A stretch of 34,385 nt of DNA. It comes from Siminovitchia fordii DSM 16014 = CIP 108821 (GTDB lineage Bacteria > Bacillota > Bacilli > Bacillales > Bacillaceae_C). The notes under the pieces are model-generated. The model saw only the letters and a list, made by a program, of their open reading frames with translations, made no database searches and was not told the DNA's origin. Of the stretch, positions 5,732 through 34,385 are shown piece after piece; position 1 is the stretch's first letter, and each line of letters opens with the position of its first letter. The stretch spans positions 1 through 34,385 of the forward strand of contig NZ_KB894700.1 of the NCBI RefSeq assembly GCF_000374565.1. Direction: 5' to 3'. Position numbers and translations under genes: made by a program.

Positions 5732-6027
5732 AAGAGTATTTCCTTGATTCTGAAGAGTATCTGGGAAAAAGGGAAGAGTATTTCCTTGGATCTGGAGAGT
5801 ATCTGGGAAAAGGGAAGAGTATTTCCTTGGATCTGGAGAGTATCTTAGAAAAGGGAAGAGTATTCCTTGATTCTGAAGAGTATCTGGGAAAAGGGAAGAG
5901 TATTTCCTTGATTCTGAAGAGTAATTTCTTAAAACTTAAGAGTATTTCCGAAAACTGAAGAGTACTTGAACAAAGTTAAGAGATTCCCAACAACACCGAA
6001 GAGATTTTTCCAATAGTCGGGAGGATT
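5732..6027 (-). repeat. TACTCTTC tandem array, inverted orientation
   Basis: On the plus strand this reads as repeated GAAGAGTAT, i.e. the reverse complement of the core in the arrays at 1-120 and 7225-7853. GAGTA starts at 5734, 5755, 5776, 5797, 5817, 5838, 5858, 5878, 5898 and 5919, spacing 20-21. Two spacers alternate, TTCCTTGGATCTG and CTGGGAAAAGG, giving a ~41-bp dimer unit. After about 5930 the units decay. It lies just upstream of the NERD-domain gene and is inverted relative to the array downstream of it. Confidence 0.9.
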
Positions 6028-6150: not shown

Positions 6151-7128
6151 ATGATTAAAAAGTTCAGGAAAGTCCCTTTAATAATACTAATAATGGAAGC
6201 ACTATTAAGAAGAATTCATCCAAACCATCCGAGTAAGGCCCAGATTGAGGAGGAATTAAGATTTAGGAAGGCAGGTTACCGCGGGGAGTTGTCCCTTGAC
6301 TACCATATGTCACAGTTGCCTCAAAACGAACATTTTATCCTCCATGACCTCCGGCTCCCCCTCTGGAATAATACTTTTTTCCAAATAGACTCTCTCCTAT
6401 TATCGAGACGTTATTTTACAAATTACGAAGTGAAAAACCATTCCGGTACATTGACATTCGAGGAGCAACAGATGCTCCAAACGTATGAAGGACGAACCGA
6501 ATCTTATCCCAATCCTATTACTCAGGCGGAGAACCAGCAATACCATTTGGAAAATTTGATCAGTAAAAATCTTGATATTGTTCTTCCCGGCACCTCGTTT
6601 GTGGTTGTCACGAACCCTTCATCCATTGTCAAATTCGATCCCCAATATGAGCAAATCGCCAGTCAAAAAGTAATACGCGTAGGTGCTATTCGTCAAAATT
6701 CCGAGTTGTTTTGGAAAAAACATCAAGAGCACCTCATATCTTACACTGACCTTCAAAAGATTTCCCAGCTCTTAATAAAACTTGATACTCCTTTAAAACC
6801 CGATATTTTACAAGAGTTTCGAGTCGATAAATGTGATATTCACCCAGGAGTATATTGTGATAAATGCAAGTGCCTGTCCATGCTAAGGGGGTATGGCACT
6901 TGGAAATGCAAAAGATGTGGCTTTACAGATAAAATGGCACACGTTCAGGCTTTGAATGATTACCTTCTATTGATTGGAAATACCATTACAAATTCACAAC
7001 TCCGCTTTTTTCTACAAATCAACTCCATTACTGTTGCCACCCAGCTGTTAGGATCACTGAATTTGTCCTTTGAAGGAACCTTTAAAGATAGAAAATATCA
7101 TTTATCATTAGAAGCGTTAAAAAAGTAG
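6151..7128 (+). CDS. NERD-domain (nuclease-related) protein with zinc ribbon
   Basis: A 325-residue protein. Residues ~45-150 match the NERD domain: FQID (Asp ~80) followed by YEVKNHSG (Glu ~93, Lys ~95), a pattern like the D...ExK centre of restriction-type nucleases. Residues 236-256 form a CxxC...CxxC zinc ribbon (YCDKCK and WKCKRCG). The short hydrophobic N-terminus (PLIILIMEALL) may be a weak membrane contact. The ATG has AGGTGG upstream. NERD proteins are thought to act on nucleic acids, but most are uncharacterised. It stands alone, flanked on both sides by inverted copies of the same tandem array. Nuclease activity is inferred only. Confidence 0.85.
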   Translation: MIKKFRKVPLIILIMEALLRRIHPNHPSKAQIEEELRFRKAGYRGELSLDYHMSQLPQNEHFILHDLRLPLWNNTFFQIDSLLLSRRYFTNYEVKNHSGTLTFEEQQMLQTYEGRTESYPNPITQAENQQYHLENLISKNLDIVLPGTSFVVVTNPSSIVKFDPQYEQIASQKVIRVGAIRQNSELFWKKHQEHLISYTDLQKISQLLIKLDTPLKPDILQEFRVDKCDIHPGVYCDKCKCLSMLRGYGTWKCKRCGFTDKMAHVQALNDYLLLIGNTITNSQLRFFLQINSITVATQLLGSLNLSFEGTFKDRKYHLSLEALKK

Positions 7129-7224: not shown

Positions 7225-7853
7225 TACTCTTAAGATTTTTGAAAATACTCTTCGCTTTCCAGAATTACTCTTCGAATTTAGGAGAATACTCTTCGCTTTC
7301 CAGGAATACTCTTCAAATTTAGGGAAATACTCTTCTCTTTCGAGGGTTACTCTTCGAATTTAGGAGAATACTCTTCGCTTTCCAGAATTACTCTTCAAAT
7401 TTAGAGAAATACCCTTCTCTTTCGAGGGTTACTCTTCGAATTTAGGAGAAGGCTCTTCGCTTTCCAGAAATACTCTTCGAATTTAGGAGAAGGCTCTTCG
7501 CTTTCCAGAAATACTCTTCGAATTTAGGAGAATACTCTTCGCTTTCCAGAATTACTCTTCGAATTCAGGAGAAGGCTCTTCGCTTTCCAGAATTACTCTT
7601 CAAATTTAGGAGAATACTCTTCGCTTTCATGAAATACTCTTGAGATTTTGGATATACTCTTCTCTCTCCAGAGATACTCTTCGAATTTAGGAGAATACTC
7701 TTCGCTTTCCAGAATTACTCTTCGAATTTAGGAGAATACTCTTCGCTTTCCAGAAATACTCTTCAAATTTAGGGAAATACCCTTCTCTTTCGAGGGTTAC
7801 TCTTCGAATTTAGGAGAATACTCTTCGCTTTCCAGGAATACTCTCGGCTTTGA
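7225..7853 (+). repeat. TACTCTTC tandem array, ~30 units
   Basis: A long, regular array: TACTCTTC starts at 7225, 7246, 7266, 7287, 7307, 7328, 7348, 7369, 7389, 7410, 7430 and so on, alternating 21 and 20 bp. The dimer is a 21-bp unit with spacer GAATTTAGGAGAA plus a 20-bp unit with spacer GCTTTCCAGAA. Some cores are GGCTCTTC or TACCCTTC. The period (41 bp) is not a multiple of three, so the ORFs running through it are accidental. The plus strand is pyrimidine-rich in each core. No inverted CRISPR-type repeat or unique spacers are present. Confidence 0.92.
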
Positions 7854-33395: not shown

Positions 33396-33432
33396 AAATA
33401 TTTTTTTATATGTGTGTTTATAGAACTGAAGA

Positions 33433-33474
33433 GGCCGACGAGAAAATCTGTGGGAAACGATTCTCTCGTCGGCC
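33433..33474 (+). terminator. Terminator after the ABC exporter
   Basis: GGCCGACGAGA pairs perfectly with TCTCGTCGGCC (11 bp) around a 20-base loop, followed by ATTTTAAA. It lies 38 bases past the stop codon. Confidence 0.85.
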
Positions 33475-33544
33475 ATTTTAAATTAGGAGACGGGGGCCGA
33501 GATTTTCTCTTAACTTCGAAGTTGGTGTGGGATTAGTGACCGGT

Positions 33545-34385
33545 ATTGGTGGAAAATGCATATGTTGGGCATCTATCTTCAACATTGGTAACCGCTTTTT
33601 AACGAAATCTCTGATAACGGGGATCTTTCTTCTACATTAGTGACCGATTTTAACCGAAATCACTCATAACGGGCATCTATCTTCAACATTGGTGACCGGT
33701 TTTTAGCGAAATCTCTCATAACGGGCATCTTTCTTCAACATTTGTGACCGTTTTTTAGCGAAACCACTCATAACGGGTACCTTTCTTCTACATTAGTGAC
33801 CGTTTTTAACCGAAATCTCTCATAACGGGCATCTTGCTCCACTATTAGTGACCGCTTTTTACCAAAATCTCTCGTAACGGGAACCTTTCTCCAACATTGG
33901 TGACCGTTTTTTAGCGAAATCACTCATAACGGAAACTTTTCTCCATCATTAGTGACCGCTTTTTCCCAAAATCTCTCGTAACGGGCACCTTTCTTCTACA
34001 TTAGTGACCGTTTTTACTTAAAACCACTCGTAACGGGCATCTATCTTCAACATTGGTGACCGCTTTTTCTCAAAATCTCTCGTAACGGGCACCTTTCTTC
34101 TGCATTGGTAACCGCTTTTTAACGAAATCTCTCATAACGGGCATCTATCTTCAACATTGGTGACCGATTTTAACCGAAATCTCTCGTAACGGGAACCTTC
34201 CCCCACCATTGGTGACCGCTTTTTACCGAAATCTCTCGTAACGGGCATCTTGCTCCACTATTAGTGACCGCTTTTTACCAAAATCTCTCGTAACGGGAAC
34301 CTTTCTCCAACATTGGTGACCGCTTTTTACCAAAATCTCTCGTAACGGGCACCTCCCCGTTTTTTCTCGAAACCTCTCTTAACGG
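33545..34385 (+). repeat. 52-bp tandem array, at least 15 units, cut by window end
   Basis: T(G/A)ACCG starts at 33589, 33641, 33693, 33745, 33797, 33849, 33901, 33953, 34005, 34057, 34109, 34161, 34213, 34265 and 34317: every step is exactly 52 bases although the bases themselves vary. Each unit has two related halves 26 bases apart, GTGACCG then GTAACGG, separated by CTTTTTACCGAAATCTCTC and GCATCTTTCTTCAACATTG. Unit and half-unit lengths are not multiples of three and stops occur in all units, so it is not coding. A degenerate unit precedes it at ~33545. Confidence 0.93.

Follow-up and report, generated by a model that had tools for sequence, protein, structure and literature searches.

Directional, helically phased 52-bp arrays in Bacillales: putative protein-binding sites oriented with respect to replication

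Rows of a 52-bp unit with a fixed internal direction recur between the genes of some Bacillales. Read from their sequences, they are well supported as directional, helically phased, putative protein-binding arrays under selection for spacing. The best reading, which we place at an even chance, is that they would serve as binding sites for a protein, possibly a NERD protein, that acts at replication forks. The parts of this reading differ in strength: that a protein binds the arrays is highly likely, that the action takes place at the replication fork is rather likely, and that the NERD protein is the binder falls a little short of even. A motif pair kept at exact spacing across an order, with a direction that follows replication and not transcription, would imply a conserved protein complex that meets the replisome. 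No description of such arrays was found in the open-access full-text literature, where most subscription journals are missing, and the arrays look like an apparently undescribed system of spore-forming Bacillales.

The array at the studied locus

The window, meaning here the whole stretch of 34,385 nucleotides of Siminovitchia fordii that was analysed, ends inside one of these arrays (Table 1). TRF places the array at 33567-34351, with a period of 52, 15.1 copies, 82% matches and 0% indels. The first-pass annotation had recognised a tandem array with an invariant 52-bp step, which is confirmed by T-arms and G-arms alike; the array is real, while its true start lies about 57 bp before the position 33589 given there. 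The gene to the right of the array, outside the window, encodes a periplasmic binding protein and is in convergent orientation. A coding repeat was rejected, as there are 12-21 stops per frame and no open frame. It has no Rfam match, and its folding as single-stranded DNA gives a z of -1.4.

Table 1. Coordinates of the array and its surroundings in the window
Feature	Position	Strand	Remarks
52-bp directional array	33532..34385	+	G-arm to T-arm on the + strand, which is towards the inferred origin; interrupted at 34385 by a scaffold gap; from TRF and motif positions
16 T-arms (ATTNGTRACCG, 11 bp)	33532..34322	+	Starts 33532, 33584 ... 34312; every step exactly 52
15 G-arms (CGGGNAYCTTT-like, 11 bp)	33566..34304	+	Starts 33566 ... 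34294; every step exactly 52
Decayed last unit	34346..34385	+	About 15 bp deleted, including the T-arm; counted by eye
Terminator-like hairpin	33431..33480	+	Between the upstream gene and the array; read by eye
ABC exporter gene, 592 aa	31617..33395	+	Left neighbour of the array, 3' end towards the array

The end of the window is a 100-N scaffold gap (C16:34386-34485) inside the array. The 85 bases preceding this gap recur identically following it, and the array continues to about C16:34680; the copies counted in the window are therefore a lower bound. Arrays at or near contig ends or by a scaffold gap were also seen in G404 (C15, C101, C109 and C112), G120 (C5) and G015 (C65), besides C16 of the studied genome (G000). 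Such arrays may thus break assemblies, and their copy numbers may be underestimated; they would explain some assembly breaks, as in the studied contig.

Searches of plasmids and phages with the window array returned no match, nor did a search of plasmids with a second array (L179). The GGTNACC palindrome pattern matched 60 viral stretches, each with a single site and none with rows, and a phage or plasmid origin was rejected on these grounds.

Unit design and spacing

In the studied genome, the unit consists of a G-arm (CGGGNACnnWW), 7 bp, a T-arm (WWnGTNACCG) and 23 bp. Over 55 array consensi, it reads CGG[GT]NAC-nn-WW, 7 bp, WW-nn-GTN[AC]CCG, then 23 bp. Both arms are versions of a single half-site, the second inverted relative to the first. 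Their core centres are separated by 20 and 32 bp, or about 2 and 3 turns, which allows all half-sites to lie on one helical face. In 879 of 1165 units the arms are heterotypic, one being of the CGGT type and the other of the CGGG type, while 191 units are homotypic and 95 are of other kinds; these unlike arms give the unit a direction. Super-repeats of 104, 156 and 260 bp occur within arrays.

Spacing is kept far more strictly than sequence. The gap between the arms is 7 bp in 597 cases, 6 in 14 and 8 in none, with 0 or 1 case at each of the other lengths from 2 to 14; across the linker, the arm-to-arm distance is 25 in 761 cases, 24 in 35 and 26 in 39, the other lengths from 15 to 35 having 2-17 each. 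The core-to-core distance in 36 arrays is 52 in 535 of 550 cases, 51 in 11, 53 in two, and 41 and 43 in one each. Neighbouring units, however, diverge by 14% overall (7.5% at motif positions and 16.6% in linkers). Information content over the 55 arrays amounts to 0.49-2.0 bits at 21 of the 22 arm positions and 0.26 at the remaining one, to 0.06-0.29 bits at the gap positions, and to less than 0.3 bits at 15 of the 23 linker positions. Because the linkers are unrelated and yet the 52-bp step and the 7-bp arm gap are kept, selection on spacing is supported. Such selection had been proposed in the first-pass annotation, which placed a GTAACGG half-motif at +26 on the opposite side of the helix; this geometry was wrong, the motif being the inverted half-site at the distances given above, and the direction of the units, their orientation relative to replication and the adjacent NERD genes had been missed. 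The cooperative protein-binding or chromosome-architecture role suggested there is putative.

Two column pairs of the arms vary jointly over the 55 arrays. Columns 4/26 anti-covary: standard pairs number 9, where shuffling gives 24.3, and none of the 1000 shuffles fell below the observed value. Columns 8/22 covary positively, with 39 of 55 pairs against 26.4 in shuffles and 0 of 1000 as high. We read the latter as both half-sites changing together by genus (a "dialect"); a hairpin would also give it.

Occurrence in the genome and in the order

The studied genome holds at least 18 arrays of one design, with about 236 units, whose linkers are unrelated and which have the two 11-bp motifs in common. 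A motif-to-motif search of this genome with spacings of 37-67 left open returned 61 pairs, 60 at 52 and one at 51, and 0 matches for a control pattern; together with the at least 18 like arrays, this is far beyond chance.

A two-unit sequence model matched 13 of 34 genomes of the family. Applied with stricter filters to 397 genomes of the order, it matched 31, which belong to nine families and 14 of 136 genera, and left 366 unmatched. This model was built on 52-bp units and its matches favour 52, the open-spacing searches (37-67) being less biased. A second such search, across the order, matched 37 of the 397 genomes. Among the matches listed, the spacing is mostly 52 (read by hand), with rows at 51 (G297, G052), 53 (G201 and part of G221) and 41 (G226), and the matches also include single ones and protein-coding-like repeats. 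TRF on the fetched loci gave 58 rows with a period of 51-53, 53 of them at 52; three rows (L024 920, L056 10004 and L186), which did not belong to this family or scored low, were left out of the consensus and 55 were kept. The longest array has about 119 copies and the shortest about 2. Freely varying unit lengths, which the first-pass annotation had named as evidence against its proposal, were not seen, other arrays having units of 51-53 bp.

Three observations concern rows of related or similar period. A TTGGTAACC row at G226:C1:4598054-4598472 has a 41-bp step (10 of the 15 matches listed), which is four turns and not five. At L056:10004-10509 (G012), about 1.2 kb from a normal array, a period-52 row of 9.8 copies with 94% matches has no GTNACC arms. 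The array edges at L114 and L116 (G031) share a further repeat of similar length, CTCATGTCCC...GGGACATGA (by eye), which suggests nested or older rows.

Genomic setting and turnover

The arrays are intergenic and mostly face the 3' ends of genes. Sixteen of 36 lie between convergent genes, 19 between tandem genes and 1 between divergent genes (15, 19 and 2 with an earlier script), against 35, 139 and 67 of the other gaps of at least 80 bp in the same loci (p about 1e-5).

Two other species of the genus have orthologous arrays, one between purF- and purM-like genes and one between MreB-like and flotillin-like genes (names assigned from Pfam hits), in which the arms and the step are kept and the linkers have diverged. 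Movement is therefore not frequent. At the window site, the ABC exporter is 98% identical in S. terrae, 96% in 'Bacillus norwichensis' and 93% in S. fortis (best segments); S. terrae and S. fortis have no array there and B. norwichensis has a decayed look-alike only (by eye), and the two-unit model found no match in 31 loci of relatives of the window site. Absence or decay at this site in close relatives, together with the 366 of 397 genomes left unmatched, indicates that the arrays are not essential.

Orientation relative to replication

Read from G-arm to T-arm, the arrays point towards the replication origin. Examination of 99 arrays in 20 genomes gave 87 towards the origin, 5 against and 7 ambiguous, i.e., 87 of 92 directional arrays (p about 2e-20 if the arrays were independent, which the orthologous ones among them are not). 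Counted by genome, 17 are towards, one is against (G061) and two are tied or ambiguous (G110, G201; p 1.4e-4). The pooled count avoids double counting of G017, and the arrays at 2430 and 2562 kb in G145 and at 2844 kb in G309, the homotypic 468-kb array of G145, and relatives' arrays beyond those listed were left out of it.

Four single-contig genomes account for 48 arrays, of which 42 point towards the origin, 2 away and 4 are ambiguous (including the 3840-kb array of G017), with the switch near the middle; three of these genomes begin with an ORF recognised by eye as DnaA, and the start of the fourth is masked. In the drafts, GC skew is only a proxy of fork direction. Together with G017, they provided 36 arrays, and of the 33 that are directional, 32 run against the skew of the flanking sequence. 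All 18 arrays of the studied genome run against local GC skew, and the window array does so with 33:0 votes at a skew of -0.107. When the test was repeated on a further set with the hypothesis noted beforehand, 17 of 19 directional arrays (20 in all) agreed; this set covered eight families other than that of the studied genome, one family already used (f47) being represented by one array of another genus. The five arrays against the polarity are at 1321 kb in G145, at 1278 kb in G017 (borderline), and at L116 in G031, L324 in G110 (skew near zero) and L326 in G061 (weak votes).

Of the 28 directional arrays that lie between convergent genes, 23 point towards the origin (p 0.0009, naive ORF gene calls), as do all three directional arrays between head-on tandem genes in the single-contig set, where some neighbours are short ORFs. 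Transcription thus does not explain the orientation. A purely compositional cause was rejected by reasoning: on the G-arm-first strand, which is C-rich, skew would be expected to yield T and C at columns 4/26 rather than G and A.

Association with NERD genes

A NERD-family profile, run on 1282 ORFs of loci that had been chosen around arrays, detected seven genes. Six of them, from five genomes and two families, each end 6-214 bp before the first core of a 52-bp array (at L289, the regular row begins about 300 bp beyond the gene), and all six are head-on by GC skew. Four of the six adjacent arrays are directional and read from G-arm to T-arm in the sense of the gene; those at L303 and L258 are homotypic and have no clear direction. 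The chance of six adjacencies in six is about 1e-5, with 196 ORFs as nearest neighbours; this is a rough figure, as the lead was picked after the fact, four of the six genes and the window gene had gone into the profile, and the adjacency at L258 and L303 was recognised later. G212, from a third family, has a broken NERD ORF in front of an array, at a locus fetched before the NERD lead was known. Of the roughly 100 arrays, few lie next to a NERD gene.

A NERD domain was recognised in five of the array-adjacent proteins; most have two CxxC pairs (by eye), and the tail is basic. Their NCBIfam matches (a MADS kinase and PglW) score far under the cut-off and fall on the NERD part, and their PADLOC matches are weak. 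Relatives were represented by one weak match, in an archaeon, among plasmids and by none in the phages and viral contigs searched.

The seventh gene is the window's own (6151-7128, + strand), flanked by rows of another type than the 52-bp one. It encodes a NERD-domain protein of 325 aa with about 25% identity over 220-240 residues to two array-adjacent NERD proteins. The rows, at 1-107, 5732-5964 and 7244-7844, carry TACTCTTC every 20/21 bp, a 41-bp double step with about two helical turns per site, and hold 35 of the window's 36 exact copies, where 0.94 would be expected by chance. Those at 5.7 and 7.2 kb lie in opposite orientation on either side of the gene, whose product is possibly the partner of the TACTCTTC rows. 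Further 20-bp rows, with a ACTCNCRTATAAA-like core (by eye), lie at L022:14920-15767, L028:1-95 (at a contig start) and L108:14144-14430; one has 42.8 copies.

Proposed mechanism and alternatives

Altogether, these findings lead to a model in which each 52-bp unit would be a composite one-way binding site, made of two unlike half-sites, G-arm and T-arm, that are inverted and 7 bp apart. With a repeat every five helical turns, bound proteins could be aligned along one face of the helix and in contact with their neighbours. The row would be held by a sequence-specific protein. The leading candidate for it is a NERD-domain protein (nuclease-related, CxxC zinc-ribbon-like) encoded, in several genomes, by a gene that ends immediately in front of an array. 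Since the arrays share a direction relative to replication irrespective of the orientation of flanking genes, the complex would most likely act on, or be amplified by, the passing replication fork. Both a domesticated polar barrier and a self-spreading gene-plus-repeat system fit the data.

As a self-spreading system, the arrays would resemble RAYT/REP with a NERD nuclease in place of the transposase, the array being cut or copied when the fork exposes one strand, which would fix its orientation and multiply its units. We consider this a tentative possibility. The fixed order of NERD gene and array, copy numbers from about 2 to about 119 with super-repeats, fast turnover between close relatives, and the intergenic, mostly 3'-facing location are all consistent with it, whereas rigid helical spacing across unrelated linkers would be unnecessary for spreading, some arrays occupy orthologous sites in different species, and the viral and plasmid searches returned, for relatives of the NERD protein, nothing beyond the archaeal match.

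Alternatively, the arrays could form a polar replication-fork trap, with multi-copy Ter-like barriers that pass forks travelling from origin to terminus and stop returning ones. RTP is the fork-trap protein of Bacillus, and the arrays would then be a convergent replacement of RTP-Ter in Bacillales that lack it. This is an unlikely reading, to which several findings nevertheless lend themselves, namely consistent array orientation on both replichores and a 29-bp bipartite site with unlike inverted arms. PMC13220808 and PMC10331603 describe a likewise bipartite ter in B. subtilis, whose A and B sites are unlike and inverted. Of the 48 arrays in single-contig genomes, 0 lie in the first 10% of the replichore and 5 in the first 25%; their relative distance from the origin nevertheless runs from 0.11 to 0.99 of the way to the terminus (mean 0.57), not clearly different from uniform (KS p 0.067).

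The distribution of RTP is similarly two-sided. PF02334 (RTP) is over the cut-off in 117 of the 397 genomes of the order, all among the 366 others and none among the 31 array-positive ones (Fisher p 2e-5, kinship ignored), and it has no match in the studied genome. In the family of the studied genome, RTP is over the cut-off in 7 of 16 sampled genomes, all seven being without array matches, and among the families with strong RTP matches only f1 also has arrays, in different genomes. The exclusion, however, follows mostly families, and so represents few independent events; it is a hint and not proof of replacement. Moreover, five of the 31 array-positive genomes (G116, G120, G122, G199 and G309) have sub-threshold matches to the RTP profile; G100, which is not among the 31, combines six open-spacing motif pattern matches with a weak RTP match just over the cut-off (29.3 bits), and some genomes have neither RTP nor arrays. 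The more specific proposal that the NERD zinc-ribbon protein fills the phased one-way arrays and forms polar nucleoprotein fork barriers, which would make it a third fork trap, of independent origin, in lineages that lack RTP, is quite unlikely.

It is improbable that the arrays are neutral satellites, i.e., rows made by slippage whose 52-bp period is merely inherited and has no function. In favour of this reading, units are homogenised within arrays, and the relatives of the window locus offer one decayed look-alike and two empty sites. Arms and spacing, on the other hand, persist over nine families while the linkers diverge between arrays, 87 of 92 arrays point one way, and compositional skew would, by the reasoning given above, favour the opposite bases at columns 4/26. 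Palindromic repeats of the REP/BIME/REPIN type mobilised by a RAYT transposase are very improbable: inverted pairs in extragenic tandem rows 3' of genes are shared with them, whereas a fixed GTAG/CGTC tag is missing, the arms avoid pairing at columns 4/26, and the Y1 transposase matches amount to one copy with seven stops, the best of the three, and two partial ones, with no 52-bp row in the fetched stretches around them. Transcribed hairpins (terminators or mRNA stabilisers) hardly come into consideration, as the inverted arms, the location 3' of genes and the covariation of columns 8/22 are countered by the systematic mismatch with anti-covariation at columns 4/26, the lack of an Rfam match in the window, the folding z of -1.4 and the separate terminator-like hairpin that precedes the array; an RNA element was likewise rejected for the anti-covarying arms at columns 4/26 and the missing Rfam match.

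Under the reading of phased binding sites that would act at forks, the arrays would offer a first handle on fork management in Bacillales without RTP; otherwise they may represent a new gene-plus-repeat element. They are also a natural set of phased, oriented, putative protein arrays on which collisions between forks and proteins could be tested.

Comparison with known systems

The RTP-Ter site of B. subtilis is similar, being a bipartite inverted repeat of about 30 bp that is imperfect and whose halves are unlike, as in the heterotypic majority of units here. Like RTP-Ter and Tus-ter sites, the arrays take opposite orientations on the two replichores and, as in Tus-ter of E. coli, they are spread across a large part of the chromosome. 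In contrast to RTP-Ter, whose sites are single, they form tandem rows with between about 2 and 119 units; they are not confined to the terminus, and their arrest of forks is putative. The arrays were not assigned to RTP-Ter, as the studied genome has no RTP gene, the sites do not cluster around the terminus, and the Ter core (consensus, up to 3 mismatches) has 0 matches in the window.

With BIME-2/REP/REPIN and their RAYT (the REPtron), the arrays share inverted half-units, extragenic tandem rows 3' of genes that are homogenised within rows, and a nuclease-like gene linked to some rows. They differ in their exact helical step, their orientation relative to replication, arms mismatched at a fixed place, and the NERD domain of the linked gene. 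REP/REPIN carry a GTAG or CGTC tag at one end, according to PMC3733652. Among 646 units, read on either strand, GTAG occurs in 78 and CGTC in 33, and the consensus has no fixed tetranucleotide. PF01797 (Y1 transposase) has three matches at two places in the studied genome, none full-length and intact, one of the partial matches lying within a 137-aa open frame. With no tag, no pairing at columns 4/26 and no intact RAYT flanked by rows, membership of the REP/BIME/REPIN group was rejected.

AIMS/KOPS resemble the arrays in an orientation tied to the direction of replication. As to a rise towards the terminus of the AIMS/KOPS kind, the mean relative distance of 0.57 and the empty tenth next to the origin stand beside a distribution not clearly different from uniform. 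They are dispersed octamers, whereas a 52-bp unit is found here in rows at some 8-18 loci per closely examined genome; the polar octamers of E. coli have at least 96 copies each in the set of PMC5993296. Phased rows of short protein sites are also formed by plasmid iterons, parS/ParR and omega-protein repeat arrays. The arrays described here, whose role as protein sites is putative, share this phasing and are distinguished by their many chromosomal loci, their inverted unlike half-sites and their 52-bp step, and neither plasmids nor phages gave a match to the array of the window.
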